Source of the DNA: Stictocephala bisonia
Lineage: Eukaryota > Arthropoda > Insecta > Hemiptera > Membracidae
Assembly (NCBI GenBank): GCA_035578905.1
Contig: JAQJVL010000198.1
Coordinates: 992,001-1,056,000, forward strand
DNA: 64,000 bases
Direction of reading: 5' to 3'
Shown here: one piece after another, positions 1 through 59,291 of the stretch
Position numbering within the stretch: position 1 is the stretch's first letter
How the letters are laid out: each line of letters opens with the position of its first letter
Translations under genes and position numbers: made by a program
The notes under the pieces: generated by a model
The model's database searches: none
What the model was told of the DNA's origin: nothing
The model's input: the letters and a program-made list of their open reading frames with translations, nothing else

Positions 1-768
1 GGTACAATTACCATAAAGAACTAAACCGTACCTGAATACAGACTGAAAATATGCAAAATAGGCTGTTCTTATATAATTTTTTGGTACAATATTGTTCAAT
101 CTATTTAAAAGATAAATTACCCTTGATAGTCGTTTATTTAAATAGTCTATGTGATCGTTCCAGGTTAGCTGATTGTCAATATAAACCCCCAAAAATTTAA
201 TCGAATCCACAAAATTTTCATCCAATGAAATAGAACTAGGCTTAAGATGAAATAGTATGTTTTTGTTTTATTACAATTTAGCAAAAATCCATTTGAATTA
301 AACCAATTTAAAGCTTTAGAAAGAGTCTCATTAGCCATAATTTCCAGATCATTAATGTTTTTGCTTACGTTAAAGAAAGTTGTGTCATCGGCGTAAAGAA
401 TAATTTTAGAATCAGTTGTCGATGAAAGATCATTGATATATATCAAAAATAGGAGGGGACCCAGGACAGAGCCCTGTGGGACGCCCCACTCCATTTTCAA
501 TTCTTTTGACCACCTTCCATTGACACAAACGGTTTGCCTACGGTTGTTTAAATAGGATTCAAAAAATTTTAAAGATGGTTTACAGAAACCATAATGTTTT
601 AATTTTGCAATTAGAATTTTACTTTCAACACAATCAAAAGCCTTGCTCAGGTCACAAAAAGTGGCCTGCGCAAAGGCTTTGTCTTCAAAAGATAGGTGAA
701 TTTGTCTGACTAAGTTATCTAAAGCATTGAACGTTGATCTGCCCTGTCTAAAGCCGAATTGTGATGAA
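1..768 (-). pseudogene. LINE RT catalytic core and C-terminus, broken, cut by window start
   Basis: Reading minus, this holds FGFRQGRS (about 760), CDLSKAFDCVE (about 650), GVPQGSVLGPLLFLIYINDL (485-430) and the catalytic YADDTTF (about 400-380). The palm and thumb region FLGVYIDNQLTW (about 200-165) follows in another frame after a shift near 260, and further RT sequence runs to base 1. The stretch 500-165 is open for 111 codons. No 3' end is visible because the window stops. Confidence 0.85.
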
Positions 769-2440
769 TTAAAAATATTGTTGTTTTCTAAAAAATGAGT
801 AAATTTGTTTGTATACTAACTGTTCAATTAATTTTCCAAGTACCGGGATTATTGATATAGGTCGACAGCTCTGAGGATTGTGTTTTGGTCCATTTTTGTA
901 AATTGGGCATACACGAGAAATTTTAAGTTGATTGGGAAAAATGCCATCACTAAGCAGACGATTTACACATACTGCTAGAGGTTCAGTCAAACCAACAATA
1001 ATTCTTTTCAGTAAATTGTTTGACATATTATAAAAATCATTACTATCTGAATTTTTCATATTTTTAACAGCATCAAGAACATCTTTTTCTGTTACTGCTG
1101 ACCATTTAAAATGATTTAAACTATTATGGGTAGACCTATTGTCATCACTTAAAAGGTTTGGCAATTTACAATTTGTTTTCATTTTTATTTCCCTAACTGA
1201 ATTAATAAAATACCTGTTCAATACATCAGGTTCAATGTTAGGCTCACTTTTCTTGTTGACTTCTGTGTTATATTTAATAACATCCCATGCAGCTTTGCAT
1301 TTGTTTTTGCTAACTTCAATATATTTAACATTTGTGAAAAACTTTGCTTCATTAATAGATTTTCTGTATTGATGTTTTAATTTTGCAAAACTTAATTTAA
1401 TATCACAATTGTTTTTATCATTATTACATTTCATTAGACAATCTAAAAATAACAATCTATTTTTCATTTCAGCCAATTCAAATGTATACCAATCCTGGTT
1501 CAACTTTTTTTTCTTTGGTTTTTCAGTTTTCACTTTAATAGTTCTTGAGTAATAATTTAAATGATTTGTTATAACATTAAATATGTGTAAAAACATAGTA
1601 TCTGACGATTCATAACTACACTTGTGTAGCAAGAATGACCAGTCATGTGAGGCTAAACATGAAGATAAAGCTTCAATATTTTTCTTAGGCAAGTAAAATT
1701 TTATCTGGTAGTGCTTTGATGTTGTAAAACTGCCATTGAAATTAGAATTATTTGAATTAAAATCTGTTTGAACCGAAATTCCATCATGGTCGGAAAAGGG
1801 AAAGTGAAAAGTTGTTACAATTTGAATTGTTAAATGTTGTTTTAAAATAAAAATATTATCTAGGCAATTGTTGCCTCTTGTAGGTGTGTTATTATAGTGA
1901 TAAAAATTATATTGTTTAAACAAGTTAAGCAGCTCCCTTGAGGTTTTGCTATTTTTTGTCACATCAAAACTACTATTAAAATCACCCACTATTAAAATCA
2001 TAATTAATATCATAATAGTTCCATTGTGACATAAAATTTAAAAACAATTCTAGAATTCTAAGGAATTGATAAGGATCACCATTAGGAGAGTGATAGACAG
2101 AAACTACAATGGTTTTAGTGCTATCCAGAAATGCTGCCGATGCTTCAAAATTTAGTTCCTCACAAAATTGGCTCACATCACACTTCCTTGCAATTAAATT
2201 ATTATGAACAAATATAGAGGAACCGCCTCTAATGTGATTTGTTCTACAGTAAGCATCAGCACAATGGAACTCGCAAGGAAAGGATAAATTAATTTCATTT
2301 GTTAACATCCAGTGTTCAGTTTAACAAATAACTGAAATATTAGAATCAATTAAGAAACAATCCAAAGCATGAACTTTTTTCTTTAGCCCTTGAATATTTA
2401 AAAATATTATGTTAAAACTAGAAAAAGAAAAAGATTGGTC
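769..2440 (-). pseudogene. LINE endonuclease and N-terminal RT region, broken
   Basis: The endonuclease starts near 2440 with FLNIQG and includes TEHW, RGGSSIFV, the GDFNSSFD motif (about 1985-1960) and FSDHDGI (about 1800), the typical AP-endonuclease blocks of LINEs. After a Lys-rich linker the RT begins, with CRPISIIPVLGKLIE near 860. A TAA interrupts the frame just before TEHW (about 2326). A small duplication near 1980-2010 shifts the frame, and another shift lies near 780. The residues closely follow the LINE at 37.9-39.8 kb, which supports the reading across the breaks. Confidence 0.85.
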
Positions 2441-2886
2441 TACATTGACTGACTGATTTGTACAAGTTAGTGATTTACTAGGCCTACTAAATATACTGTT
2501 TTAAAGTGGGATGTGACAGAGATAAGTTGTTATTTGCTGTGGTCTCATGAGATGTGTGTGGTGTATAAGTAGAAACATGTGTGGACTGTGAATGTGTGTG
2601 GACAAAAGAGTTAGCTGCAGTGGAAGTAGGAACAGCACTTGACACACAACTGACCATGGAAAAAGGAACAGCACTCAACACACAACTACCAATGAGTTGA
2701 GAAGACACTTTACCGCTGCCAGTGTCAATTATGGGGTTGTCTGTTTGATGTTGAGTCGATGTCACTACACTTTGGCTTCCAGGTGTCATTATTCTTCGGG
2801 ATGGGGTGGTAGTTTCTAGATTTGACTCAATCAATTCTATTTCAGAATATTTTAGGTTGTTTGCAGAGGACTTCATAATCCAGTTC

Positions 2887-3576
2887 TCATTTTGTGAGTG
2901 ATTTACAAATCCAATCCAACTTGTGTTTAGCATCTATTATTGATTGATCTGAGAATCCCTGGAAATCAGTAATCATTCTATCAAAGTTGCACGTGTTCAG
3001 TTGATCTTGGTGCTTGGCTGAGTGTTTAACTGAAATATTTTCATGTACGTTATTTTTTGAAGCACAGTCATTCATTATTGTGGTTGATAAGGCGCTGCAG
3101 AGTTTTTTCTTCCCTATAATACTTAGATGCAGGCCATGTCGAGTATTACATTCCCTTGTCATTTTTGTTTTACTCATAGTTATTATATTAGCAGATTTTT
3201 TGTTTAGCTGTGTTATCTGTTTATTAATATCTTTATTTAATTGGGAAATAAGTTTATTGTAAGATGGTTTATCAAAACGATGAGGAATTCCAGGAAAGAT
3301 AACATTAGTCCAGTTGCTAAGAAATGCAACTGTGCCAACAATTTTGCTTGTTAAGACTGTTGGATTGCTTAGTATTGTAGGGACGTCATTAGTGCCACCC
3401 ATAAGAATAACATAGTCTTCTTTAGTGAAATCTGATGTTAGAGCAACAATATCATCAACCACCTCATGAAACTTTGCATTTGGCTTGTAGATGGATAAAA
3501 CTAGGTAGTCTTCCTGTAAGTTCCCTTGGAGTAGCTTGCCACATAACCGTCCATGGCTGTCAGCAACCAATAACAC
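2887..3576 (-). CDS. SGNH/GDSL-like hydrolase domain of LINE ORF1
   Basis: This 229-residue frame shows SGNH hydrolase blocks: ADSHGR at residues 5-10 (nucleophile Ser7), LMGGTNDV at 58-65 (Gly and Asn of blocks II/III) and RHGLHL at 146-151 (His150). The Asp normally three residues before the catalytic His is replaced by His147, as also happens in the LINE at 16-20 kb. Esterases of this type are known in CR1-like ORF1 proteins, where their role is unproven; lipid or membrane binding has been suggested. It follows the Ulp1 frame after 34 bases. An overlapping frame (2933-2487), rich in Ser and Thr, probably continues the linker. Confidence 0.75.
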   Translation of the reverse strand: MLLVADSHGRLCGKLLQGNLQEDYLVLSIYKPNAKFHEVVDDIVALTSDFTKEDYVILMGGTNDVPTILSNPTVLTSKIVGTVAFLSNWTNVIFPGIPHRFDKPSYNKLISQLNKDINKQITQLNKKSANIITMSKTKMTRECNTRHGLHLSIIGKKKLCSALSTTIMNDCASKNNVHENISVKHSAKHQDQLNTCNFDRMITDFQGFSDQSIIDAKHKLDWICKSLTK

Positions 3577-3610
3577 CTTTGGTTTAGTTTTAATTTCTTA
3601 GGTAGATTTC

Positions 3611-4465
3611 CTATGAATATGATGAGGGATTTTTCTTGATGGTAAACGTGTAACTATTTGCTTTGGGTTTTTTTTCTAAGCTAGGATGATGTGTGCATGA
3701 TTCAGTAACATTAGTTTTTTTGTACACTATGTGTTTTTGGCCCTTATGATTTTTTTGTTTATCAGTTTTCACAGCTTCATTGTTATGAGAATTTAAGGAC
3801 ACTAGATTACTGTAAATTTGGGTAGTTTCTATTTCAGTCATACAAGCTTGAATCTCCTTGTTTGACCGAACAACGCTAGATATTGAGTGATTTACATTTG
3901 TTTCACAATCAATCATAAGATCTCTTAAAGTTTTCACACTTAGGTTATGTTTGTTTTTTAAAATATAAGCTAGAGAAGCTCTCTTTTTAATGATGTTTAC
4001 TTCAGTAATTACTAGTTTTTCAATATAATGTATCTGCAAGCCACAGCTATTGACAAACATTCCCAACAAAAGCATCTCAATAGCACATATCACAAATACC
4101 CCACAGTCATAACTGTTGCTCTGCTGGGGCCCTTTAATTTCAGTAATATTCAACTTTGCATTTGTCCCCACTAAATACTTAAATAGTTTATTTGCTACCG
4201 TCTCTGCAGATGTTAGATTATAACTGTTTAATGAGTCAATGTGATAAAATGACTGTGAATGTTTAACATAGACAAGTACACTCCAGTGTGTACCTTGGTT
4301 TCCTGATGGGTACATTTGATCAGAATCATTTATCGGTATAAATAATATGTCCTTATCCCTGATATTTAGAGGGTCTATAAAATGATTAAAATCATTTACA
4401 CTTTTCACTGCATGGCTAGTAATTGGATTAATTATTAAAAAAGGAATATCTGTAATAATACAATA
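3611..4465 (-). CDS. Ulp1/SENP-like (C48) cysteine protease domain of LINE ORF1
   Basis: The frame is open from about 4465; the first ATG is at 4408 (265 residues to the stop). Counting from that ATG, the C48 catalytic set is complete: His41 in GTHWSVLVY, Asp58 in YHIDSLN, Gln95/96 and Cys102 in QQSNSYDCGVFV. This spacing and the DCG motif match Ulp1/SENP peptidases, which remove SUMO or NEDD8 from proteins; SENP8-like is my best guess. The tail (residues 130-265) is basic and low in complexity. Homology continues upstream of the ATG (residues INPITSHAV), so the true start is probably lost by 5' truncation near 4465, where a 20-bp palindrome begins. The true substrate is unknown. Confidence 0.8.
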   Translation of the reverse strand, partial: YCIITDIPFLIINPITSHAVKSVNDFNHFIDPLNIRDKDILFIPINDSDQMYPSGNQGTHWSVLVYVKHSQSFYHIDSLNSYNLTSAETVANKLFKYLVGTNAKLNITEIKGPQQSNSYDCGVFVICAIEMLLLGMFVNSCGLQIHYIEKLVITEVNIIKKRASLAYILKNKHNLSVKTLRDLMIDCETNVNHSISSVVRSNKEIQACMTEIETTQIYSNLVSLNSHNNEAVKTDKQKNHKGQKHIVYKKTNVTESCTHHPSLEKKPKANSYTFTIKKNPSSYS

Positions 4466-4483
4466 ATAATCGCCCGATTATTA
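4464..4483. repeat. 20-bp near-perfect palindrome, copy 1
   Basis: TAATAATCG-CC-CGATTATTA has 9-bp arms. A matching stretch of about 30 bases, including this core, recurs at 8441-8460 inside the hAT-type MITE. Here it touches the 5' edge of the Ulp1-bearing LINE. Function unknown. Confidence 0.75.
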
Positions 4484-5084: not shown

Positions 5085-7842
5085 CCTCTTCAGTGGATTT
5101 GGTCAGTATACTGTACAAATTCTAATTATATACTAGAGAGTAAATTTTTAAACTTTGGGCTAAAAATTTTGCAATGATGATTTTCTTTAATATATGACTC
5201 TTCTTATGACTTTTATTAACTGTAACAAAAAATATTTTATTTATTTATACCCTTTTTTTACTGTACGGTATAGTGTACAAATTCTCTCAATGAAATAATT
5301 ATGTTAGGATTGTATTGATAATAAATGCCATGGTTTAGATAGAAATATTTATTCAAAACAAGTTATTTTTACAAGGATTAGCAAATTATTTCTTTGTATG
5401 AAATTCATAAAAACAATTTCTCTTCTGGTTGATGCATAAATGCACCTTGCATTTATGGCAAAAGAAATGGGACCGATATTTACCACATGTACTGTTTTTA
5501 CACCTAGTAGGTTCGGTTTTTCCGTCATGAGTAGGTAGGTGATCTACTGAGTCTGTTTGAACACTCTGTAATGGACGTTGTTCATACCTTGACCTCTTTG
5601 TCTGAGGCATATTATCATCTGGATTGTTATTTGCCTTTTCATTTGATAGCCTTCCCTTCTTTTTGTTAGTGACTGGTTTACCTACTCTTATAATTTCTTC
5701 TGCCAGCTGGAGCCTAAAAGCAAGTAAGTCCAACTGTTCTTTCTTCGGGACCTTGAGAATTTGTGCTGTTCTCTTGTACTCAAGCCAAGAATTCGTTACA
5801 GCCATATCGATAGCATGGAAAATTACTCGTAATGTCCACTTTTTTGAGCGTACTGTGATTCTGTACAGTGCAATATATCGATTATAAAGGTCCACCCCGC
5901 CCATCGCAGAGTTGTACTCATTGACAACTTGTGGTCTTGTTACTTTTATATACGCTTTATCCCTTTTCTCCCATCTTTTGACCGTGTCAGTCTCACCTAT
6001 ACCGACATAGTTTGAGGCAAGAGATACTGTTTTATTATCGAGCCATTTTGTTACCACCACATCCCCATCGTCACTCACTACTTCCTCACTGAATCCCCTC
6101 TTTTCCTTCATCATTATTTTATCAGAAGTTAAAGGTGGTTTACTAAATCTATTCAATCTTGCAGTACAAGCTGCAAAAATCATCTTACTCTTTAAAATTT
6201 GAAGTAAGGCGTTAAGAAGAGAAATAATTGTCGAAAAACAATAAATTTCCAGGTTTCAAATTTTCAACCAGTTTCAAAACCACTGTCGCTCCCAATCCAA
6301 AGTCTCTGACATAATCCTTGTCCAACTCAGTATTTTGTCCCTGGTATAATACAAAATCATACATCATCCCACTTTTTCCTGCTAGAATGAAATTTTTTAT
6401 ACCCCATGGGCATGGTTTTCCTTTTACATATTGTTTCACAGATAAATTTTTCCCAGTAAAAGGAATAATCTGTTCATCAACAGACATGTACCGTTCTACT
6501 TGAATTTTCCTACATCTACTTGCTATGCAATCAAGTAAAGGGTGAACTTTGAAAAATATGTCATTGTTATTGGTCCTCTCCAAGTTATTTACAAAATGTA
6601 AGTTGTTCCTAATTGAGAAAAACCTTTTCAAAGGCATTTGTGCATCTCTGAACAAGCCGATGTTTAGACTCGAATCCCAGTACATTTTTACACGGGGTAA
6701 ATTTAGGGATCCCATCGCAATATGCAACGCAATTGCTGTTTCGATTTCCAAGAGTGTGCAATCTTTGAAACTAGTTTTATTATTTTGCATTGCATACATA
6801 TTTGTGCAATCACGAGCAGTCTCAAGTATGCTCTTTGGTACATACTTTTGAAAAAATATCAAAGGAGATGGTAGCATTGTGTACTCTGTTGAAAACTCTT
6901 AGTCCCAATCAGGGGGATCTCTTGTAGTAAACATTTCATTTTTCCATTGTATTTCTCTCTTACTCGTAACAATATTGTTGAATAACATACCTCTTTGATC
7001 AGCATTATCTAAAACTGGAGGGACAACATCATTTTGTATTTCTTGCTCTGGCAACACTTCCTGGTTGTTTGCTATAACAGTTGTTATGGCTTGATCAATG
7101 TCCAATATATTGTCCAATTGTTCATCAAACTGTCCATCACCTTCAATATCATTCATCAAATTATCCTCAAAAATGACATCATCACCAAAATTGACACCGT
7201 CTTCCACGTGTAAAATATCTGCTGGCAGTTCAAATTCACCCACCTCTTCTTCCCTGTCTGACAAATTTTCTATGTCGGAAATATCCCCATTTTCAATCAA
7301 ATCAAGGATATCACATGCTTTCAGAGTATGTTTAGACATTTCTGTTGGTGTTTGTTAGAACACACATAACCTAAAACTAATACACTAAACAACTAAAACT
7401 AAAACACTCACTAAAGGCAATTGTACATTATACTGTACATCACTTTTCAAATCAATGCCAAATAAAATATATGGTAAAAATGTACGATGTGAACTATTTA
7501 AAACCAAATACATACATTGAACAAACAAAATATGCACTTAACTAACCTTAATTCACTCTGAATTATTATAAAATTTCATTTGAAAAGTACATGTTGTTGA
7601 CATGGAAACAGACTGCATTAGATGGGCTGAGAATATGATTGGTTGAGATGTTTTGCTGTGGCCACAACAGGTAGCAGCACTATCCAATACAAAACTCAAT
7701 GTGCAGTATTCTGTACAAATGCCTTCACCAACACCAGCATACCTTATTTATTTATTTTTAACTACTGAAATTACATGTACACTATACTGTACAATGGACC
7801 TTAACATAGGTGAAAAAAATTGTTAAAAAACCACTGAGGAGG
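5085..7842 (-). mobile_element. piggyBac-family DNA transposon with TTAA target duplication
   Basis: The element is bounded by TTAA on both sides (5081-5084 and 7843-7846). Its terminal inverted repeats (TIRs) are CCTCTTCAGTGG at the left and CCTCCTCAGTGG (as complement) at the right: 11 of 12 bases match. The 2758-bp length and a single transposase frame on the minus strand fit piggyBac. Subterminal motifs with TACTGTACA or ATAGTGTACAAATTC recur near both ends (5108, 5265, 7425, 7775) and may bind transposase. TTAA-specific insertion is the hallmark of the superfamily. Confidence 0.95.
5386..7339 (-). pseudogene. piggyBac transposase, inactivated by one stop and one frameshift
   Basis: Three open pieces form one transposase. 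7339-6899 is the acidic N-terminus (MSKHTLKACDIL). 6877-6212 holds the first two catalytic aspartates: Asp134 in SVDEQIIPF and Asp216 in FFDNYFSS. 6183-5386 holds MGGVDLYN (third Asp98) and a Cys/His-rich C-terminal zinc motif (residues about 225-260). A TAA at 6899-6901 interrupts the frame with no frame change, so it is a nonsense mutation. A frameshift of one lost or two gained bases lies between 6212 and 6183. The position matching the fourth acidic residue (D450 in the Trichoplusia enzyme) is Asn101 here, by my alignment. Confidence 0.9.
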
Positions 7843-16085: not shown

Positions 16086-16562
16086 ATGAAGTATTGACCA
16101 TTTCAGAATTTATACTGAACTAGGATAATAAGATGATCAATATTATACTCAAAGTAAGACTATGTTATGTTTATTTTACAATGTATACCCAATTCATCGC
16201 AACAATTTCAGTAATTTTTTATTTATATTTATTTATTTATATCTTCTTTATTCATTAATATTACAAGAATACATTGAATGGTGTCAAGTATTAACCTAGG
16301 TCAATCAAATTAAAATAGTAATTAATACATACCATATACATGTCTTTGCAAAATTATGACTAAAATAATATCCTTATAGAAGTGAATAAAATATGAAATT
16401 TGTAATTTACATTTGTGTAACTGTTACAGTTCATCAAGTGAATACAGAGTTTTATTTATTAAATATATTTTAAGTTTATCCTTAAATTTTGATAAAGATG
16501 TTTCTGATTTGATATTTTCGGGTAATTTACTAGTAAATATTATTCCTGCATACTGTGGTTTT

Positions 16563-18123
16563 TTACAAAATAGTGCCAATCGATGAGAGGGTTAATTCGT
16601 TCCGCTGTCTAGTATAGTAATGATGATTATCGCCATTCAGTTTCTGCTGTCCGATTTTTGACCTAATGGATAGTACTACTTCGTAAATGTACATTCCATA
16701 GACAGTGAGAATTTGTAGTTTGGCAAATTTTTCTTTAACTGAAACTTGAGGTTTCAAATTTTTAATATGATTCTTATTACCTTCTTTTGCATTATTAAGA
16801 TTGATTCAAGATTTTTAAAATTTGTTGCACCGTACAAGGATATACCAAAATAAATGGTGGAATGTATGTATGCAAAATAAACCATTCTTAAAGTGTTTAT
16901 GTCACAAAGATATCTTAATTTTCTTATTGCAAATATACCGGATGATACTTTGGACAAAACTTTCATAACATGAAGATCCCAGTCTAAATTCATGTCCCAT
17001 GTTAACCCTAGAAAGTTTATCTCTTTAACCTGAGAAATTCCAAATTTACCAGTATAATTAAAAGGTTTATTTTTCCAACTCTTTGTTTGAAAAGCTATAC
17101 AGTTGTTTTTTTCTAAATTTAAAAGCGAACCATTTTGATTAAAATACTGACAGAGATGAGTTAAGTTCTCATCCAGCTTACTTTCAATTTCTTCCCAAGA
17201 TGGAGCATTAATATTTATATTTGTATCATCAGCATACAAACAAATTTTACTCGAAGAGCACAGTTTTGGAAAATCATTTAAAAAGCAAACAAATAAAATG
17301 GGACCTAAAATGGAGCCCTGTGGGACACCATATTTAATTATTTTCACTGAAGATTTGTAATGATTTCTGAAATGTTTACCATCTTGATGAGATATTTCTA
17401 CAAATTGCTTTCGATTACTTAAGTAAGATTCAATCCAATCATATGATTGACCCCTTAGCCCTAAATTATATAATTTAAATAAAAGAGATGAATGAGGAAT
17501 AGAATCAAAAGCTTTGCTCAGATCCATTAATATTCCCATTACCTTTCTGTTCTCATCCAATGAATTAATTACAGATTCAATGAATTCCGTTGCTGCCGTA
17601 ATGACAGACTTTCCCTTACGAAAACCGTGTTGACAGTCACGAATTAAATTATTTTTTTCTAAGAAATTGACTAGTTGCTCACAAGGCTCTTTCAAAAATT
17701 TTAGAGATAGTGGGAAGCATGGATATTGGTCTATAATTTTGAATATCAGTTTTTTTCTCCTTTTTAAAAAAACGGTATTACTTTGGCAATTTTGAGTTTG
17801 CTTGGAAACAAGCCTGAAATGAAGGATGAATTGATCAAATGAGAAATTGGTTTTACCAACTGAAATTTACAACTTTTTATCAAGCTTATCGGTACTTCAT
17901 CAAATCCTGAATTTTTTAAATTCTTTAAACTATCAATTATTTTTAATACTTCCTTCTCATCTATTGGCTTACACTTAAAAACATTATAATAATTATCATT
18001 CATACATAGGCTGGTAGTACTGACTTGATTGATTTCATTAGTCATAGTCTTATTCCTATCTAGTTTAGGTATAATGTTGCTTTCAACATAATTTAGGAAA
18101 TAATTATTAAAACTCTCACACAC
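16563..18123 (-). pseudogene. LINE reverse transcriptase, mostly intact core
   Basis: 18123-17764 is the N-terminal RT region ending KIAKVIPFF. After a frameshift near 17760 comes NYRPISML-type sequence, then an open 313-residue frame (17695-16754). That frame holds HGFRKGKS (23-30), MDLSKAFDSI (57-66), YGVPQGSILGPILF (122-135) and the catalytic YADD at 154-157, then FLGLTWDMNLDW and YGATNF. A last frame (16757-16563) adds the C-terminus after another shift. The catalytic Asp pair is intact, but the frame breaks make it non-functional. Confidence 0.88.
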
Positions 18124-18267
18124 AACAGCAGGATCATGAACAGATCTACCCTGAATGTTTACAGTAATGTTTCTTTCACTTGAAGTATTTTTCCCTACCT
18201 CATTGTTAATTATTTTCCATGTGGTTTTGTTAACATTTGAAGATAAATTAAGAGTTTTTGAAAAATG

Positions 18268-19320
18268 TCACTTTTTCTGCTCATACATTTTTTTTCTAAA
18301 TGATTTATTCATTTTTTTCACCTTTAAAAACAGGGAGTTATTTTGAGTTTCTCTAGCTACCTTGCTCAGTTCAATAATTTCTACTTTATCTGATTTAAGG
18401 TCTTTAGTGATCCATGGCTTTTTATTTTTAAAACTTCTATTTAATTTTCTAGGAAAGAATAAATTAAAATAAAACATAAATGTATCATAAAAAACATCAT
18501 ATTTACAATAAGGTTCTGCCATATATACATTATGCCATGACTCTGATTGTAATGCTTTAGAAAATTTGGACATGTTTGTTTCAGAGAATTTTCTAGAAAA
18601 TTCTGATATCACTGTGGACTTTCTGTTTTTTGTTTCTTTATTTAAAGATTTTAAGACTAGTAATTGGGCATCATGATCGGATAGTTGAGTATTTATTCCT
18701 GTTACACTAAGCAGATTTTTATCAATATTTGTAAAAATATTATCTACTGTATACAACTTTCTGATGTTTCTGTAATTCTGGTTGGGAAATCTACCAAAAA
18801 TGTCATGCCATTGGCTACCAGAACGTTATTGAGGTTTCTAGCCCTCCTGCTGTGTTCTGTCAAGTCAATATTTATATCGCCAATGACCACAATATTATCA
18901 AAATTTCTAACATTTCACTCAGTCTGTCAGTCGATGCTGCGTCATTTGATCTAATTGGATTTCTATAAAGCCCAGCTATTAATAAATTTGAATTTTTAAG
19001 TGGGAGAATATTCTTAAATTCAACAGTGCAACATTCAAAAACAGTTTCACTGTTTAGTTGCTCAATTTCTTTTAGATTGATCTTTTAAAAACTCAAGTGC
19101 GGCTTAGCTAAAATAATGACCCCACCTCCTCGGGAAGTTTGTCTGGCAAAACTGGAAATTAACGTGTAGTCTAAAATATTTATCCGTTCTAATGTTGGTT
19201 GAACCATTTTGTGTTCTGAGAGTACTACGATTTCAGGATTTAATTCAACTAGAGTAATTTCTAAGAATTCAACTGATGACTCAAGCCCCCTTATATTTTG
19301 ATGAAACACGGTTACGCCGC
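18268..19320 (-). pseudogene. LINE endonuclease, broken over several frames
   Basis: 19309-19085 starts with FHQNIRGL and contains LSEH and TSRGGGVIILAK, the first endonuclease blocks. GDINIDLTEH follows near 18885 in another frame, then NQLSDHDAQLLVL-type sequence (LSDHDAQ near 18680) inside 18756-18268. At least three frame changes separate the blocks. The Lys-rich end (NRSFKNKKPWITKDL) is the usual connector between endonuclease and RT. Confidence 0.8.
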
Positions 19321-19371
19321 TACAGTTTAAACTACTGTTGTGTGTGGGGAGCTTACATTGTGAGGTTGGCT

Positions 19372-20673
19372 TTACTTTTGCTCTAAAAAATAATTGACTT
19401 CCATTGAGTTAATTAAACCATTACTTATACTTAGAGAGTCATTGACGGTACGATTTCTTTCATCACTATCTAAATTATTCACATGAAGAATTTCACTTGT
19501 GTTTTTACCACAATTGCTCTGCTTTAGGGCCTCACAGTATGTGAGGTCACCCGGCACTATTACAACACTCTCACAACCAGCAGATATCTCAGGTGATTGG
19601 GAAACCTCTACTGTCGAAGTCTCGCGAGAGGTTGAAGATATGTTAACAGTCTCATCAAGATGCATGGACAGTGATGACTCACAGGATGCTGTTGGAGTTG
19701 ATTTTTCTGTTTCGTCATTTATTAGATTCTTTATTCTGTTTATAAATTCTCTGCGTGATAATCCATTACGTAGGCTTCGGACGGACTTTTGAAAATTGGA
19801 TACAATAGTGACTGTGGCATTGGTGCAACATTGAAACTTCAAAATGTTTTTTACAAATTGAGTCAAGTCCATTTTATCCCTTACACATCCAATAGGAGAA
19901 CAAATGAGATGTTTGAGGCCCCTGATTTTAAAGCCTTCAGTTAAGTCATTGAACGCGGCATTATAGTCTGATATGGTTGGCTTGCCAAAATATTTTTCCT
20001 TGGTGATTAAACTGTATACTGCAGCCCCATTTTCTGTGTTCTGTAAAGCCAGATGGCTGGTGAGACGTTGTGCAGTGATGGGTTTTCCGAATTCATTTTT
20101 GAAGACCACAGCGACTCCAGCTGTCATGTGTCGAGAATCTTGAAAGTCGCTAGAAATGCTGTGTGTAAATCCTACACTTGCATTGTTTCTATGGTATTTA
20201 ATCACTTTTGCCATATGTAAATTTATTATATTGACTGTACTTTTAATAGAGTTGTTAGAGTTGGGTGATAAATCTCCATGATTTCTAGAGTTTGTTACTC
20301 TGCTTGGTTGTTTTTGACAAGTTATTTCTCTTACAAAGTCTATGATCCTGTAAGCTAGTTTCTTTTTCCCTTTATAGTTTAAGTGCATTCCGTGTTTGGA
20401 AAAGTGATACCTTTGGAAATAGTCCAGATCAATTAGGCTAACATTACTCATTCTTGAGACAAGCTCTCTGATGTAATTGTTTGTCAATGCTATCTGATGA
20501 TGAGTGTCATCATTCGGCTGCAGATCAAACCGAGGGGGAATAGTTGTTATACATACAGGCCTCAAACTGCTTAAGGATTTAAGTTTTCCTTCCATTTCAT
20601 TGTAATTGCAATTTCTTTTACAACAGCGCAATGATAAGTTGTAAATGAAAGTTAGGTAGGCAATAAAACACAA
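19372..20673 (-). CDS. LINE ORF1: SGNH C-terminal part fused to TARG1/OARD1-like macrodomain
   Basis: This is a 433-residue open frame. Residues about 27-118 are the end of an SGNH hydrolase (TTIPPRFDL at 43-51, SKHGMHLN at 92-99). Residues about 150-300 match the TARG1/OARD1 macrodomain, which removes ADP-ribose from acidic residues. They show MTAGVAVVFKNEFGKP (183-198), YSLITK with Lys225, KPT at 231-233 and SPIGCVRDK with Asp266. Lys225 and Asp266 sit where TARG1 has its catalytic Lys84 and Asp125. The remainder is a Ser/Thr/Glu-rich linker. The first about 20 residues are probably flanking DNA read by chance, since the element seems 5'-truncated. Enzymatic activity is inferred, not shown. 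Confidence 0.85.
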   Translation of the reverse strand: MCFIAYLTFIYNLSLRCCKRNCNYNEMEGKLKSLSSLRPVCITTIPPRFDLQPNDDTHHQIALTNNYIRELVSRMSNVSLIDLDYFQRYHFSKHGMHLNYKGKKKLAYRIIDFVREITCQKQPSRVTNSRNHGDLSPNSNNSIKSTVNIINLHMAKVIKYHRNNASVGFTHSISSDFQDSRHMTAGVAVVFKNEFGKPITAQRLTSHLALQNTENGAAVYSLITKEKYFGKPTISDYNAAFNDLTEGFKIRGLKHLICSPIGCVRDKMDLTQFVKNILKFQCCTNATVTIVSNFQKSVRSLRNGLSRREFINRIKNLINDETEKSTPTASCESSLSMHLDETVNISSTSRETSTVEVSQSPEISAGCESVVIVPGDLTYCEALKQSNCGKNTSEILHVNNLDSDERNRTVNDSLSISNGLINSMEVNYFLEQK

Positions 20674-21697
20674 CTGTAATACTTTATTACAGCTTATAAT
20701 GTATTTACAATATTAAAGACTCCAAACCAAGTTGATAAAACTATAAAACAATCATGGAATCATGTATATCTCATACAACATATCATTTTTAAGTTCATAA
20801 TTTTATTTCAATGAGAACAATAAACTTTTCATAAGAGTAAAGCTAATTTAAAAAAAACCCACTGTAACTAAACAATGTACAAACAAATGACTTTCAGAAA
20901 CTATAAAGATGACATAAAAATGTTTTAATAATTATGAAACTGTGTTTTTTTTAACATTAGAAATTAACTTCACATATATTATTCTTTTTTAAACCTGCAT
21001 AGTGCATATTTGAGAGTGGACCCACAACGTTTTGTATGTGTTAAATGATTTAAATTGACAATATACTCAAATATCTGGAAAACGAGGATGAATCGGTATC
21101 CAGTACCAGTGTTTACTATATGGCTGTGTTGATCATGGCCAGTTATACACTCTAAATGTATTTAGTTGCCAGTTCAGTATGAGAGTGACAGTAAAATATT
21201 AAAATTTTTAATTCAGAAAACTGTTTTAGAGGGTATATTGCTAAACTAGATCAAAATGTTCATTGTTCTGTACATGTGATCTCATTTTGATTTATAGTTT
21301 TTATAGGTTTCAACAATTGTTTAAAATAAATAACATAATAATGAAACATCATTTTTTCATAGATATTTTTCTATTTTTATATACCACGGTAAATAGCAAA
21401 AACATGTTAACAATTATTTCATTATTACACTTTATTATATTTCTAGATTTTATTATTTACAGATCAATATATCTAATACAAATAATAGAGTATATGAATA
21501 ACAATGCAAGAAAAAACAGTTAAAATAAACTTACAGTGTCTAGATATACTATTTACACAACTGGGCAAAAACTATACTCTTCAAATCCAAACCTCCAATA
21601 TTTAATCAAAAATATTTATAGCATCTCTGTATTATGGGAAGGTTGAACTCCCAATGCACAGGCAATGCGCTGTCCAAAGGTAATAAGTGACAGTCCT
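20641..21697 (-). other. Probable deltaCOP 3' UTR and downstream flank
   Basis: The sequence follows the deltaCOP stop codon on the minus strand and has no other coding content. Candidate AATAAA poly(A) signals on the minus strand lie at 21431-21436 and 20683-20688. I cannot tell which is used. Confidence 0.5.
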
Positions 21698-36703: not shown

Positions 36704-37127
36704 CTAAACAGATAAAAAAGCAATGTTATATCAACTAATTTATATAAACATTTAAATTGAAAACGTTGACAGAAAAATGAAAGGTGTCAAGAGTAAGGCA
36801 ATTATTCCTAATATTTTTATTAAATATTAACGTAGGAGTTTCAATATTAACGTGATTATAAATCAAATAACTTCAACAGAAAGTATGGCATCACTCGCAG
36901 CACCTTGAATTAGTTAATAAATGTTTAATTATTTCCATGCCACTTAATGTAACATTTTTGTTTTTTATAAAAAAGAATGAATTTAGTTGGATTAACCTCA
37001 GTTCTTACTTTGTTAGTTAGTATGTATGTTGAAATATGAATTTGCATGACACTGCTCAACATCGCTAAAAATGTGGGCAGATTTAATCTGACAGATTATC
37101 TGACAGATTGTTGCAGATTTAATCTGC

Positions 37128-37643
37128 AACAACATTGGTGGAGTCGCTGTCCTGTTCAGACACATGTTTGGAAGGCCGGACTTTACCAACTATGTTGATG
37201 GAAAACTCACAACACAAAAAATCCCTAACGGTGCAGTAATTTATAGCCTAGTTACAAAATCCAATTACAATAGTAAACCAACTCTTGAGGATTACAACAT
37301 GGCATTTAATCAACTTACAAGAGATTTCAAACAAAGGGGACTAAAGACACTCATCTGCTCACCGATGGGTTGTGTGAGGGATAAGATAACAATTAATCAC
37401 TTTGCCAAGAAAATTGTTGAGTTTCAGCTAGCTACAAAATCTACTGTACATGTAATATCATACAACCAGGAATCTGATAGAGTCTTGAAGGGGGGTCTTT
37501 CCCATTCTGACTTCCTGAAGAATCTCAAAGAAAGTATTGATCTAAACAAAAGCTTATCCGTCCAGAACAATAAATCTTTGTTTATGCCTCCTACACAAGA
37601 TGAGATGTCAACTCAGCCTGACCTTGTCCAACACTCCGGCTAA
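37128..37643 (+). CDS. LINE ORF1 fragment: TARG1/OARD1-like macrodomain
   Basis: The frame begins inside the domain (GGVAVLFRHMFGRPDF) and stops at 37641. Counting from the ATG at 37164, YSLVTK holds Lys29, KPT follows at 38-40 and SPMGCVRDK holds Asp70. These occupy the positions of the two catalytic residues (Lys84, Asp125) of human TARG1. TARG1 removes ADP-ribose from Asp/Glu of modified proteins. The N-terminal ADP-ribose-binding loop region is lost by truncation, so this copy cannot be active on its own. An overlapping Pro/Ser-rich frame (37600-37836) is the likely linker. Confidence 0.83.
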   Translation, partial: NNIGGVAVLFRHMFGRPDFTNYVDGKLTTQKIPNGAVIYSLVTKSNYNSKPTLEDYNMAFNQLTRDFKQRGLKTLICSPMGCVRDKITINHFAKKIVEFQLATKSTVHVISYNQESDRVLKGGLSHSDFLKNLKESIDLNKSLSVQNNKSLFMPPTQDEMSTQPDLVQHSG

Positions 37644-37759
37644 TATACCTCTGACTACACTCAACCCTCCAGCTTGTGAACAGCCCTCATTATCGTCCTC
37701 ACCAAGCATCCCCAGAAGCTCACCTAATGATACATCATCTGTCTCTCCTGTTATCTCTA

Positions 37760-39809
37760 GGACTTTCTCACCTTCACAGAAGACGACAGACAAATATTTT
37801 TTAGCAAACAATGTACAATTAAAAGCAGCAACTTAGGTAGACAATTTTGTAATGTAGCTGTAACTGATATACCTGTACATGGCTCAAGTAGTAGCTCAGC
37901 TTACAAAAATCAAAAAAGTTATCCTGTTAACTGTTTATTTTTAAATATTCAGGGTTTAAAAAATAAAATTGATATTGTTGAACATTTCTTACCACAAAGC
38001 AAACTAGATAAAGTCTCAATTATATGTTTATCAGAACATTGGCTTAGTAAAGATATTTGCAACATTGCGTGCCCAAAAGATTTTTATTGTGCAGCCAACT
38101 TTTGCAGAGAGAATAGCATTCGAGGGGGAACTTCAGTTCTCGTTAACAAAACACACAATTCAAAAAGTATTGACATATCACAATTTTGCTCAGAACTAAA
38201 TTTCGAAGCTTCAGCAGCTGCTTTAGATTCCCTTAAACTAATAATCATTTCAATTTACCATCCTCCCACAGGTGACCCAAAAATCTTCTTAGAAAACTTA
38301 GAAAATCTATTATGTTTTATCTCAACTCAGCGGGGTTATTCAACTATAATTGGTGGTGATATAAACGCCAAATTTGACATTACTTTAAACAAAAAATCTG
38401 TAGGAGACTTTCTTAATTTATTAAGACAACATAACTTCTTTTGCGTGAACAAAAATCCCACAAGAGGAGACCGCTGCCTCGACAATATATTTGTAAATTG
38501 CCCAGATCAAGTAACCGCATGTACAGTTCTTGATTTTCCCTTTTCAGATCACGATGGGCTCATCTTAAAACTAGAAAGAAACCAAAACTTACAGACCCCA
38601 TTACAAATAAATAAAAACACTAAAAGTACAAAGCCTTTAGAAATTACTTTTCCAAGATCAGCAACAGGTAATCTAGTAGACTGTCTGCTGGCGCATGATT
38701 GGGACAGTTTGATTATAAATGAAAAAAAATTAAGTGCTAAAGAATATTTTACTCTCTTTTTTGAAATCTTAATAAATAAATTAGTATATTGTTCAACTAT
38801 TAAAAACCCTAGTCACAAAGATAAAAATTTTAGAACCCAAAATATATGGTATACATGTGAAATGAAGCAAATGAAGGAGCGACTTTTGTTCTTACACAAA
38901 CTAATGAAGAATTCCAACTGTAAACGGTTACAACAAAGCTATGCAGATCTCAAAAGGCAATATAAAAAATCTGTAGAAGATGCCAAACTTGTTTATAATG
39001 CAGGTAAAATTGAAAGTAGTAGCAACAAATGTAGAGCTGCTTGGAAATTAATTAAAGAAAATACTGACAGTCCATCCCCTCAAGCAGATATGGCTGTTAC
39101 TCCAGATAGATTTAATAATTATTTCATTAACTCAGTTGCGCAAATTAAAAATGATATCATACAACCTAGTATTAACTGCTTAAATTTAACTCAAAATTAC
39201 CATATTAAAAAGAACAATTTTCATTTTGCAAGTGTCTCTTCTGATGATGTACTGGCAGCTGTTAAAAGATTGAAAAACTCAGAAAGTAAAGACATATTTA
39301 ATTTATCCAATAACATTTTCAAAAATATTCATCACACTTTTTTAATTCCTCTCACGTTATGCATAAACAAGTGCTTGGCTGAAGGTTTTTTCCCAGATGA
39401 GTTAAAGTTGTCCAGAATTTGTCCAATATTCAAAAAAGGCCCTAAAAATGAACCTGAGAGCTACCGTCCAATATCTATCATACCAGTTCTTTCTAAAGTT
39501 ATTGAAATTATAGTGCATGATCAATTGGTTGCATACCTAAATAACAGCAATTATTTAAATATAGAACAGTTCGGTTTTAGAAGAGGCAAGTGTACGGTCG
39601 ATGCTATCGCTGCTCTAATCAAGGAAATTCTTACCACTTTCGAGGACAAAGGCTTTGCTCAGGCTACTCTGTGTGATCTAAGCAAGGCATTTGATTGCGT
39701 TGATCATGCAGGGTTGATTGGAAAACTTAATTTTTATGGAATAACTGGAATTGCCTCAAATTTTTTTTCAAAACTATTAAAAAAATCGTATGCAAAAGGT
39801 TTACGTTAA
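37760..39809 (+). CDS. LINE ORF2: AP endonuclease and N-terminal RT
   Basis: The frame is open from about 37760 to 39809; no ATG lies in the endonuclease part, so its start is unclear. Endonuclease blocks: FLNIQGLKNK (37935), CLSEHWL (38030), IRGGTSVLV, GGDINAKFD (38353), TRGDRCLDNIF and FSDHDGL. RT blocks: SYRPISIIPVLSKVIE (39461), FGFRRGKCTVDAI (39572) and CDLSKAFDCVDH (39674). A frameshift after KLLKK, at a run of seven A near 39780, moves the remaining RT to the next frame. Confidence 0.9.
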
Positions 39810-40737
39810 CGGAAACTGGTCCAGTGAGGTTAATGTTCCATGGGGAGTGCCTCAAGGCTCAGTCCTTGGCCCTCTTTTATTCTTGATACAAATTAATGAT
39901 CTTCCTAATGTTTTAAAAGCAAAATCTTTCTTGTATGCTGACGACACAACTTTTCTTAATAAACATCCTGATTTTAACTGTTTACAAAAACTTGTTAGTG
40001 ATACCTTTGAAGAAGCATCAGTTTGGTTTAGATCAAACGGTTTCTTACTAAATGAATCCAAAACCCAAAACATTCTATTTAGCTTAAGACAAAATCCCTC
40101 AAAGGAAACAAAATTTTCTGATAGTGTAAAGTTCTTAGGAATCATTATAGATAACAAGTTGACGTGGAGCACCCACATTGAATTCATTTCAAAGAGGTTA
40201 TCAAGAGTAATTTATTTGTTAAGACGAATTATGACTTGCGTCCCAGAAACCTATGTAAAATCATCATATTATGCTTTTTTCCAGTCAATCATCAGATATG
40301 GATTTGTAATTTGGGGTAACAGTTCAAAAATTAGTGATATTCTTTTACTGCAAAAGAAGGCTATTAGAGTTATTTCAAAGTCACAACTGCGTGACCATTG
40401 TAGACCATTATTTATCAATCTTCAAATACAAACCATTATAAATTTATACATATTTGACTTGGTTTCTTATATTCTCAAAAACTCTGAATGTGTAACATTT
40501 GTTAGTGACTGTCATAATTACAATACCAGAAATAAGAACAACATCTCAATAAATCACTGTAGGCTTAGTACAACTCAACGTAGTCACGTTATCATATCTC
40601 AACAGCTGTACAACAAACTAAGACATCTAATTAATAAATATCCAACCAAATTATTTCTAACTAAATTTTTTAATTGGCTCGTTCAAAATCCATTTTACAC
40701 CCTAGAGTTTTTGAGTCTTAGGGAAATAGTTTTTTAG
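39790..40737 (+). CDS. LINE RT catalytic core and C-terminus
   Basis: 315 residues. WGVPQGSVLGPLLFL is at 18-32, the catalytic YADDTTF is at 49-55 (Asp51, Asp52), FLGIIIDNKLTW follows, then YGFVIWGNSS and LLQKKAIRVISK. The first residues (MQKVYVNGNWSS) continue the previous frame in a normal LINE, which proves the break at 39780 is a lesion and not a gene boundary. The stop is followed by about 125 bases of 3' UTR and an AATAAA at 40855. Confidence 0.92.
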   Translation: MQKVYVNGNWSSEVNVPWGVPQGSVLGPLLFLIQINDLPNVLKAKSFLYADDTTFLNKHPDFNCLQKLVSDTFEEASVWFRSNGFLLNESKTQNILFSLRQNPSKETKFSDSVKFLGIIIDNKLTWSTHIEFISKRLSRVIYLLRRIMTCVPETYVKSSYYAFFQSIIRYGFVIWGNSSKISDILLLQKKAIRVISKSQLRDHCRPLFINLQIQTIINLYIFDLVSYILKNSECVTFVSDCHNYNTRNKNNISINHCRLSTTQRSHVIISQQLYNKLRHLINKYPTKLFLTKFFNWLVQNPFYTLEFLSLREIVF

Positions 40738-46120: not shown

Positions 46121-46548
46121 CGGTGTGAAACTGGCCAGTATTTCCATCCAGCAAAAGAGAGAAGTGAGGGAGAAAAGAGTAAAATTTGAGGGAATTATGG
46201 GAAATATTACAAAAATTTAAAAATTATTCTAATTTTAAGTTTTTATGAGCAAAAATGTTTCCTACACGTTAGGACATTGTCATAAATATATTACCCATTA
46301 GGAAGAATAGTACGCCGAATTTCTTCAGGTGTACGATCATGACATGACTCACCAGGTAGGATGTAGATTAACATTACCACACTTTCATCAACACACTATC
46401 AAGTTAGTGATTTACTACAACAAGTACCTTTATATCTAATACAATTTTTGAAATTACTCTATTATACTCTGAGTAATAGCCAAACTAGGTACATTTGCTT
46501 TAGTAATACAGTAATATGCTTGGGCAGTTATTTATTATGTTTAAGAAA

Positions 46549-47220
46549 TATTTCAAAGTGCTGTAAGTTTAAAAAACGTCCGCAAAGCAATTTTTTGAAC
46601 ATGGCACATTGTACCTTGGGGTAATACCTTTCTGAATATAGTACACTGGCTGGGTCAAAATGTCCAAGTTATGAGATATTTACTGGTGAACTTGAAATAA
46701 ATAACGGACAGCCCCCTAAACCGCATATTTCAAAGTGCTGTAAGTTGTTAAAATGTCTGCGAAGCAAACTTTTGAACATGGCAAGTTGTACCTTCGGTTA
46801 GTACCTTTCCGAATTTAGTAGACTAGTTAGTCCAAAATATATAGGTTTTTAAATATTTACTGGTAATATAATAGCCAAGCAAATAATAGGTAGCCACCTA
46901 AACTGCCTATTTCAAAGTGCTATAAGTTGTTAAAACATCCGCAAAGCAATTTTTTGAAAATGGCAAATTGTACCTTTCCGAATATAGTATACTGGTTGGT
47001 CCAAAATGTCTAGGTTTTCAGATATGAACTTGGCGAAAATAACAGGCAGCTGCCTAAACCACCTATTTCAAAATTCTGAAAGTTGTTAAAACGTCAGCGA
47101 AGCAAACTTTTGAACATAGCACGTTGTACCTTGGGGTAGTACTTTTCTGAATATAGTAGGGTACACTGACTGGTCCACATGTCTTAAGTTGCGAGATATT
47201 TATTGGTGAACTTGGTTTAA
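46549..47220 (+). repeat. Forward tandem array, about four units
   Basis: Each unit starts near ATTTCAAAGTGCTGTAAGTT, followed by AAAACGTCCGCAAAGCAA, TTGTACCTT, GAATATAGTA and GATATTTACTGGTGAACTT. Starts lie near 46549, 46728, 46908 and 47065. Units differ by substitutions and small indels, so the array is not fresh. Confidence 0.8.
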
Positions 47221-47343
47221 TTAACTACTTGCGGCTCATCAATACTAAATAACTAAACAAGAAATATATAAATATATTTAAATGAAAGGTCAGTGATAAG
47301 TAATTAAGAAACAAATAACATAAAAATGTATTTAAAAAAATAT

Positions 47344-47885
47344 AGAAAATATCTCAAAACCAAGACATTTTGGACCAGCCAGTTTACTGTATTCGGAAAG
47401 GTACTAACCCAAGATACAACGTGCCATGATCAGAAAATTGCTTCGTGGACGTTTTTCAAACTTACAGCACTTTGAAATAGGCCGTTTAGGCGCCTGCCCG
47501 TTATTTGTGCCAAGTTTACCAGTAAATATCTCAAAGTCTAGACATTTTGACCTAGCCAGTGTACTATTTTCGGAAAGGTACTACCCGAAGGTACAATATG
47601 CCATGTTCAAAAGTTTGCTTCGCAGAAGTTTTTTTTAACTTACAGCACTTAGAAATATGCGGTTTAGGTAGATGCCTGTTATTTGCGCCAAGTTCACCAG
47701 TAATTATCTCAAAACCTAGACATGTTGGACCGACCAGTGTACTATATTCGGTAAAGTACTAACCCAAGGTACAACGTGCTACCTTCAAAAGTTTGCTTCG
47801 CGGACGTTTTAACAACTTACAGCACTTTAAAATAGGCAGTTTAGGTGGGTGCCCGTTATTTGCGCCAAGCTCATCAGTACAGCAC
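47344..47885 (-). repeat. Reverse tandem array, about three units
   Basis: The same unit as 46549-47220 in the opposite orientation. AAATATCTCAAAACC-AGACA begins units near 47346, 47525 and 47705, each ending with TTACAGCACTTTGAAATA-like sequence and GGCGCCTGCCCGTTATTTG or a variant. Two open frames (47426-47638, 47559-47762) arise only from the repeats. Confidence 0.8.
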
Positions 47886-52199: not shown

Positions 52200-52863
52200 A
52201 AGTTAACCTTTTATGTGTCATAGGATGTTATTATAAGGAAAATTATGAAACCTCCATTAAAATCAAGAACATTATTTATTGAATGGGTAAGTTTTATGGC
52301 ACGCGCCAGTCTGTCCGTTTACCTCTTAAAAAGGAATAGCCCTCATTCTGGATTGGCTGTATTTTTCTTCTTGTCTCTCTTTTTTTCTCTTTTTTGTCTT
52401 GCCTCGAGTGTGGCAGGTTTGAAAAGTAATCCTTTGCTTGCATTTTACTGCAGAATTTTGAAAGATGTACCAAATCCTCGTATTTTTCATCTGATATTGG
52501 CACTGGTCCTAAAAACATAAGCAAAATTTTTGTAGACCTACGTGTTTAAAAGTACACTAATTTTTTAAACATAATGTTATCTTGATTTAAAAACTTCTCG
52601 GTTTCATAAATCTTAAGGACTCCTGACATTTCTTAATATTTTTGTAACAATATTATTTTACTAATTTTTTTATTTTCTTAATTTTAAGCTAAATTTTTGT
52701 AGGTACCGTAAGTGTTTCAAAGTACACTAATTTTTTAAACGTATTGTTATCATGATTTACAAACTTCTCAGTTTCATAAATTTTAAGGACTCTTGACATT
52801 TCTGACTATTTTAACAATATTATTCTATTATTTTTTTTATTTTCTTAATTTTTAAACTTACTG

Positions 52864-59234: not shown

Positions 59235-59291
59235 GATCTAGCATTAGAAATACTTACGAACTCAATTTGTAAGTATTTATAATGCTAGATC
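59235..59291. repeat. 23-bp inverted repeat at a LINE 5' junction
   Basis: The left arm 59235-59257 (GATCTAGCATTAGAAATACT, then TAC) is the complement of 59269-59291 with one mismatch, across an 11-base loop. The right arm is part of the LINE coding sequence (VSIYNARSG), so the left arm is an inverted copy of the LINE edge. Confidence 0.8.

Follow-up and report, generated by a model that had tools for sequence, protein, structure and literature searches.

According to sections of PMC4120745, LINE ORF1 proteins are known to bind RNA or to carry esterase or PHD parts, and the esterase ORF1 was found in two vertebrate groups only. Passages of PMC3905857 and PMC5408684 also name the esterase in RTEX and Penelope-type elements. 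The catalytic residues of TARG1 are Lys84 and Asp125 in a section of PMC9411070; a section of PMC7050489 likewise assigns catalysis to Lys84 and residue 125, but prints the latter as Glu125. The TARG1 substrates described in these sections are ADP-ribose on Glu/Asp, the phosphate ends of nucleic acids, and thymidine in DNA, as for DarG. Within the open PMC text, outside of which lie subscription papers and Repbase reports, no paper was found that joins a macrodomain with LINEs, and none that joins Ulp1, ORF1, retrotransposon, and esterase. Macro, Ulp1, PWWP, and MBD are absent from the main text of PMC4120745, a survey of Jockey-superfamily ORF1s, and macro and Ulp1 are absent from PMC5408684, which deals with ORFs that rotifer retroelements have captured. 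The LINE ORF1 described here has a new set of modules, which may have been noticed before.

The window is a stretch of 64,000 nucleotides from the genome of Stictocephala bisonia. The open-reading-frame listing contains a minus-strand frame at 19372–20712, which contains the 3′ portion of a LINE ORF1. A preliminary description of this DNA had reported the frame at 19372–20673; listing and translation show that it is real and that every motif quoted from it is present. The catalytic Lys and Asp had been picked correctly, but their numbers were counted from a TTG codon at 20673, which lies in flanking DNA, and change when the frame is numbered from stop to stop. The features of this LINE copy, copy A, are as follows.

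16218–20604, minus strand: LINE copy A; 5′ truncation at 20604, 3′ terminus at 16218 carrying a tail of short A/T-rich repeats
19372–20712, minus strand: frame holding the ORF1 part, 446 amino acids from stop to stop
20329–20604, minus strand: C-terminal half of the SGNH/GDSL-type domain, HGMHL His block present, Ser block absent
19756–20262, minus strand: TARG1/OARD1-type macrodomain, extent from the family macro profile
19999–20001, minus strand: codon of Lys238, aligned with TARG1 Lys84 (Lys225 in the earlier numbering)
19876–19878, minus strand: codon of Asp279, aligned with TARG1 Asp125 (Asp266 in the earlier numbering)
16427–19342, minus strand: remains of ORF2 (endonuclease and RT) in several overlapping frames, located by tblastn with the ORF2 of locus L031

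Copy A shares 97.2% nucleotide identity with locus L035 over 4409 columns, and the matched stretch runs from 16218 to 20604 with none beyond. The matches of loci L046, L002, and L003 to the window also end at 20604 (L002 and L003 overlap L035 and L046), and the LINE part is therefore placed from residue 37 of the frame onwards, that is, from 20604 downwards. The LINE-derived part of ORF1 in the window is 19372–20604 on the minus strand, whereas residues 1–36 of the frame are flanking DNA read in frame. A tandem repeat occupies 16214–16252 at the 3′ end of the copy. The SGNH remnant matches positions 88–180 of the 181 in the family SGNH profile (hmmsearch, E = 1.3e-47), and RVT_1 was detected in ORF2 at 16754–17866 (E = 1.5e-27). 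Because ORF2 is split over several frames, copy A is taken to be a dead, broken, 5′-truncated LINE insertion. No convincing target-site duplication was found at the printed junctions of copy A, the sole candidate being 8 bases long, A/T-rich, and off the junctions.

Residues 180–286 of the frame align with human TARG1/OARD1 in a phmmer search of the PDB. The single window sequence matched five TARG1/OARD1 chains with E-values of 1.2e-5 to 3.3e-5 and gave one other match, at E = 1.4. A profile of 11 relatives, built from the window and its genome and including the near-identical window and L035 sequences, matched five TARG1/OARD1 chains with E-values near 1.5e-13 and no other chain within the limit of E = 0.1, so that the profile check for a non-macro fold placed the segment with TARG1/OARD1 chains alone. 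In the printed alignment with TARG1 chain 4j5r, K238 pairs with the Lys of LITK and D279 with the Asp of IGCGLD; their equivalence to Lys84 and Asp125 comes from a hand count on this alignment and a chain offset of 6. The earlier identification of a macrodomain that keeps the equivalents of both TARG1 catalytic residues is upheld by this alignment and by the PDB profile match, and the similarity makes homology of the segment to TARG1 almost certain.

The same 11-member profile yielded 120 matches among 5.8 billion proteins, and the 89 matches at 2.3e-23 or better were taken, by score, as LINE-type relatives. The other 31, from 9.3e-10 downwards, are mostly OARD1-like, although at least two of them are further fragments of the LINE type; the named fish proteins include the OARD1 of Clupea (4.8e-9) and of Silurus (6.0e-9). 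None of the 11 family macrodomains was detected by the Pfam Macro model, which may be the reason why annotation overlooks the domain. A search of the S. bisonia genome with PF01661 listed four other pieces.

The window, 46 loci, and 29 proteins supplied 83 domain rows, which comprise 72 unique sequences. Of the 65 unique macrodomains aligned at the position of the Lys (7 of the 72 have a gap), 64 keep it; for the Asp the count is 60 of 61 (11 gapped). These counts are not independent because the loci overlap in part and near-identical copies are included. Both residues are among the 30 invariant columns of the alignment of 11 macrodomains. About ten residues immediately ahead of the GCVRD motif are missing from locus L036, and protein P0023 was omitted from one protein alignment. 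Usable dN and dS were obtained from 152 of 595 macrodomain pairs. Between families, the median dN/dS of the macrodomain is 0.22 (17 pairs, dS 1.5–2.5), compared with 0.23 for the SGNH domain (74 pairs) and 0.40 for the protease (12 pairs) in the same dS range, all rough values with dS near saturation. One between-family macrodomain pair at dS 1.37 has a dN/dS of 0.13, and the 60 near-identical pairs have a median of 0.54 and a maximum of 1.9. Since this pair was the only one with dS of 0.8–1.5, the argument for selection leans on conservation, and dN/dS does not tell catalysis from binding.

The macrodomain-bearing LINE is repeated in the genome. At least 95 match rows, scored out of 5280 candidates, were found in the 1.68 Gb of the S. 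bisonia assembly; they correspond to about 93 copies, as the window copy accounts for one row and in two cases a single copy is split into a pair of rows. An open frame of 900 amino acids or more is present in 29 of the 95 rows, and at least two of these long frames are composite: the ORF1 of L033 runs on into ORF2, and L032 is fused to other retroelement sequence. The search for intact relatives, which had been proposed in the preliminary description, found many with macrodomain and long frames; intact ORF1s are larger than the one noted there. The eight compared pairs of copies are 98.4–99.3% identical over 3.1–6.9 kb, for example L037 and L044 (99.05% over 6854 nt) and L034 and L045 (98.4% over 6846 nt). 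For two pairs, L034/L045 and L041/L043, both ends of the match fall within each of the fetched stretches and the flanks differ, which indicates that these are separate, young insertions. Copy A is best explained as a member of a recently active LINE family with an endonuclease and RT.

Outside this genome, 19 of the 29 matches of the first protein search, all of the organism-labelled ones, belong to the sharpshooter Homalodisca vitripennis, a hemipteran, with 36–59% identity; a plasmid search gave no match. Copy A taken alone might suggest a chance join, an assembly error, or a host gene captured by a single copy, given its broken state and a frame that opens with 36 residues of unrelated flanking DNA. 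The copy survey, with 95 rows on many contigs, rules these origins out, and the order of SGNH and macrodomain is the same in Homalodisca and other protein records, which leaves next to no probability for them. The arrangement first described, in which a TARG1-type macrodomain follows an SGNH-type domain within the ORF1 of a LINE, is common to many elements with long open frames.

The full architecture of ORF1 was read from 16 fetched stretches that contain long open frames. The frames are 970–1104 amino acids long, with linkers between domains, and the order in intact proteins is a PWWP, MBD, or FLYWCH module, a SENP8-like protease, the SGNH fold, and the macrodomain, followed by ORF2. A Pfam search of nine ORF1s at E-values up to 0.1 detected PWWP in L041, L034, and L039, MBD in three of the nine (L040, at 1.7e-16, L038, and L037), and FLYWCH in L031. 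In L032 and L035, Pfam found no N-terminal module; the frame of L035 starts inside the protein, and that of L032 is fused to an apparent piece of an LTR element. Peptidase_C48 (Ulp1) was matched in all nine. Matches to SGNH/GDSL families are weak and limited to six of the nine, with L038 alone over the curated cut-off, and neither an RRM nor a zinc-knuckle was found by Pfam in the nine ORF1s. The preliminary description was correct about the SGNH domain and the macrodomain behind it, but missed the SENP8-like protease and the swapping PWWP, MBD, and FLYWCH modules.

The protease profile matched SENP8 in the PDB at 4.9e-37, two bacterial effectors at 6.4e-20 and 1.1e-19, yeast Ulp1 at 1.8e-9, and SENP1 at 2.8e-9, and its His, Asp, Gln, and Cys, aligned to those of SENP8, are invariant in the nine sequences. 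The MBD profile matched MBD2 (1.9e-17) and MeCP2 (1.1e-15), with binding a matter of prediction only, and the PWWP profile matched LD23804p (3.5e-18), presumably a Drosophila protein, HDGF (6.9e-16), and LEDGF (2.5e-14). The SGNH profile gave weak matches to five GDSL chains of the PDB, the best at 2.8e-4, and the ZfL2-1 esterase is not among the five. The Ser, Asn, and His of the SGNH fold are invariant in ten of ten family members. The residue three positions before the His is never Asp; it is His, Gln, or Asn in nine of the ten and Glu in one. In the ZfL2-1 esterase, by a passage of PMC3905857, Asp279 and His282 stand at this spacing. Judged by these residues, the SGNH part may be a dyad enzyme or no enzyme. 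The SGNH hydrolase reported earlier in the window frame is thus its C-terminal half with the His block, whereas the Ser block was lost by truncation and the triad Asp is missing from all ten family members.

RVT_1 was found in all six ORF2s at E-values of 5e-29 or better, and Exo_endo_phos was also matched in all six, over the curated cut-off in three. By eye, tandem 3′ tails are visible in five of six printed elements, and none is evident in L038. By its ORF2 endonuclease and RT, its 5′ truncation, and its short tandem 3′ repeats, the element is classified as an APE-type LINE. The 3′ repeats and the SGNH-type ORF1 hint at the CR1/L2 lineage, but are only suggestive. A short conserved motif, PGxx(S/T)(Y/F)xExxKQS, noticed by eye, is located near the C-terminus of ORF1, after a long variable linker behind the macrodomain, in L031, L035, L036, L038, L041, P0001, P0003, P0030, and P0034.

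Two further copies of related LINEs are present in the window. Copy B (37104–40737, plus strand) is a second macrodomain-bearing copy, 5′ truncated, and copy C retains an ORF1 of another composition.

37104–37643, plus strand: ORF1 fragment of copy B with a divergent macrodomain, Lys of LVTK and Asp of GCVRD present
37761–40737, plus strand: ORF2 of copy B (endonuclease and RT, Pfam) in two overlapping frames
3611–4477, minus strand: Ulp1/Peptidase_C48 domain of copy C (Pfam E = 3.1e-13; family profile E = 8.2e-44)
2887–3597, minus strand: SGNH/GDSL-type domain of copy C (family profile E = 3.5e-23; Lipase_GDSL E = 4.4e-4)
1–2529, minus strand: ORF2 of copy C (blastn, tblastn)

The macro profile matches the ORF1 fragment of copy B with E = 1.1e-53 at positions 56–178 of 178. 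In copy C, the profile search found no macrodomain after the SGNH domain at E ≤ 0.01. The ORF2 of copy C is 97.9% identical over 2532 nt to the ORF2 of L033, the ORF1 of which has a macrodomain. As one ORF2 stands behind ORF1s with and without the macrodomain, the pair is interpreted as the outcome of elements having recently exchanged their ORF1s.

The rest of the window holds remains of other repeats. Remains of a DDE_Tnp_1_7 transposase, which we take to be of the piggyBac type, lie at 5386–7354 on the minus strand in two overlapping frames (2e-36 and 9.8e-19), adjoined by a third open frame. A 411-amino-acid open frame with DUF7869 (1e-8) at 52864–54099 on the minus strand adjoins a 170-base tandem repeat (52518–52852), and an RT fragment of another LINE (RVT_1, 6.9e-14) is located at 59248–60249 on the plus strand. 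Two arrays of 177-base units, apparently in opposite orientation and about 190 bases apart, occupy 46548–47879. Rfam and tRNA scans of the window found nothing.

The family profile detected the macrodomain in 52 of the 54 proteins from two protein searches, a share biased upwards by queries that held the domain; the exceptions are P0053 and P0054. Seven PWWP or MBD proteins have SGNH and macrodomain with no protease detected (P0038, P0039, P0041, P0043, P0044, P0048, and P0049), and in P0022 and P0051 the order is macrodomain, Ulp1, and SGNH. The types of N-terminal module are interleaved in a tree of 22 macrodomains, with 8 changes against a mean of 8.8 after shuffling (as low in 65 of 200 shuffles). 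The tree is weak, with 4 of 19 inner branches starred, and the starred branches force two to three changes per module type. Simpler relatives resembling P0054 account for at least 82 match rows in the genome, with 74 of 5902 candidates scored; their frames are mostly about 550–700 amino acids long, and P0054 matches almost the entire length of such a frame. The length of the frames suggests that these relatives lack the macrodomain and, because they are numerous, that LINEs in general can do without it. The preliminary description had held that intact relatives lacking the segment would show a chance join. Such relatives exist (copy C, P0053, and P0054), but the macrodomain is conserved in dozens of divergent copies, and it is therefore a module that was gained or lost rather than a chance join.

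A tree of 24 hand-chosen LINE domains and 26 OARD1-like domains, the latter from the 31 lower matches (P0131–P0161) of the 5.8-billion-protein search, parts the two sets by a branch with 100/100 support and 3.06 changes per column. The tree excludes P0132 and P0147, which are fragments of the LINE type, as well as P0155, P0157, and P0160, and P0145 was cut to its macrodomain end; P0135 and P0145 form long-branched rows. The tree is unrooted and compatible with one gain of the macrodomain, and the length of the branch may reflect a shift of the substrate, even of the activity. P0145 is a 234-amino-acid protein in which an RNase H of the LTR-retrotransposon type (Pfam, 1.8e-19) is joined to a piece of a TARG1-like macrodomain; it may represent another retroelement that carries a domain of this type, or else a gene model that arose by chance.

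The best overall explanation, to which a probability of about 0.6 is assigned, is a modular ORF1 whose TARG1-type macrodomain would remove ADP-ribose. Hydrolase activity of intact copies is probable. The macrodomain would fold and work like TARG1: C1″ of the distal ribose would be the point of attack for the Lys, and the Asp would resolve the intermediate. The ADP-ribose could be attached by host PARPs or by DNA ADP-ribosyltransferases, and the targets might be ends of the element RNA or cDNA, nicks at the target site, ORF1, ORF2, and chromatin proteins, or the element's own RNP. ZAP is a PARP-family protein, and PARP2 acts at L1 integration sites. Human LINEs are restricted by ZAP, as stated in parts of PMC4441479 and PMC4423928, and a review passage in PMC7050489 speculates that RNA ADP-ribosylation possibly marks exogenous or transposon-derived RNA. 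The likeliest role would be to clear ADP-ribose locally, either while the element integrates or within the RNP; a role on nucleic acids or at the integration site is plausible, if somewhat short of probable. The anti-restriction or repair role supposed in the preliminary description is an inference as well.

MBD domains are specific for mCpG and PWWP domains for methylated H3K36, and SENP8/NEDP1 is a NEDD8 protease. The reader module, binding mCpG through MBD or methylated H3K36 through the HDGF/LEDGF-like PWWP, could take ORF1 and its erasing domains to chromatin where target-primed reverse transcription starts. Tentatively, ORF1 may be a portable modification eraser: the swappable reader would dock ORF1p at the target, and the NEDD8/SUMO and ADP-ribose that the host attaches to integration intermediates would be taken off by the SENP8-like protease and the TARG1-type macrodomain. 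Viral relatives of the Ulp1 fold mature polyproteins, and the protease could instead mature an ORF1p polyprotein, with the macrodomain as a released fragment. The length of ORF1, its linkers between domains, and the Ulp1-like proteases of NeSL/Utopia LINEs (in a section of PMC4640811) are in keeping with such processing, but the protease profile is far closer to SENP8 than to bacterial effectors or SENP1, and the domain order varies (P0022 and P0051), so that polyprotein maturation appears rather unlikely.

Other functions are conceivable for the macrodomain itself. It is unlikely to be an ADP-ribose reader that, like the ALC1 macrodomain, tethers ORF1p to PARylated chromatin at nicks: a pure reader has no need of the Lys, and both TARG1 catalytic residues are near-invariant, even though readers exist among ALC1-like macrodomains (in a passage of PMC7050489) and the N-terminal PWWP and MBD modules are also from reader families. 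A non-catalytic part that binds nucleic acid or packs the ORF1 RNP would fit the long branch to the OARD1-like set and the lack of RRM and zinc-knuckle in the nine ORF1s, as another part must bind RNA, but it is improbable given the conservation of the Lys, the Asp, and the SAGVA loop. Still less probable is an action on O-acetyl-ADP-ribose or free metabolites, for example against sirtuin-linked silencing, rather than on nucleic acid or protein. TARG1 hydrolyses O-acyl-ADP-ribose esters, according to part of PMC7050489, but such an activity would offer no obvious local advantage to an element with chromatin modules in its ORF1.

Viral macrodomains are counter-defence enzymes. If the macrodomain of the LINE strips ADP-ribose as proposed, the transposon would encode its own counter-defence against PARP-type restriction, the counterpart of viral macrodomains but from another macrodomain class, that of TARG1. 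A catalytic-looking TARG1 macrodomain in a retrotransposon provides a direct and testable link of ADP-ribosylation to the control of mobile elements in animals. The swaps of PWWP, MBD, and FLYWCH within one LINE family offer a natural set of variants with which to study whether integration is guided by the readers of ORF1.

The LINE macrodomain resembles TARG1/OARD1 (C6orf130, of the ALC1-like hydrolase class) in homologous sequence, the catalytic Lys and Asp, and an AG(V/I)A-type loop. It differs in being part of a multi-module protein, in having GC(V/T/I)RD in place of IGCGLD, and in its long branch, and its activity is predicted only. SENP8/NEDP1 is the best PDB match of the protease profile (4.9e-37), with His, Asp, Gln, and Cys aligned; the protease of the LINE is embedded in a larger protein and its substrate is a matter of prediction. 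A Ulp1-like cysteine protease, N-terminal in that case, is also described in the non-LTR elements NeSL and Utopia-1_TSP in a section of PMC4640811. Those are nematode elements with a restriction-like endonuclease, whereas the protease described here belongs to the separate ORF1 of an APE-type element and is closest to SENP8. CR1/L2 ORF1s with a PHD finger, in the portion of PMC4120745 that treats them, share with this family an "epigenetic reader" that is often N-terminal and shuffled among lineages, but the reader here is PWWP, MBD, or FLYWCH instead of PHD. ZfL2-1 and CR1 type IV elements, by passages of PMC3905857 and PMC4120745, have the same arrangement of an SGNH-type ORF1 domain ahead of an endonuclease-RT ORF2. 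In contrast to them, the LINE family of S. bisonia is without the triad Asp (ten of ten members) and adds a macrodomain, a protease, and a reader module.
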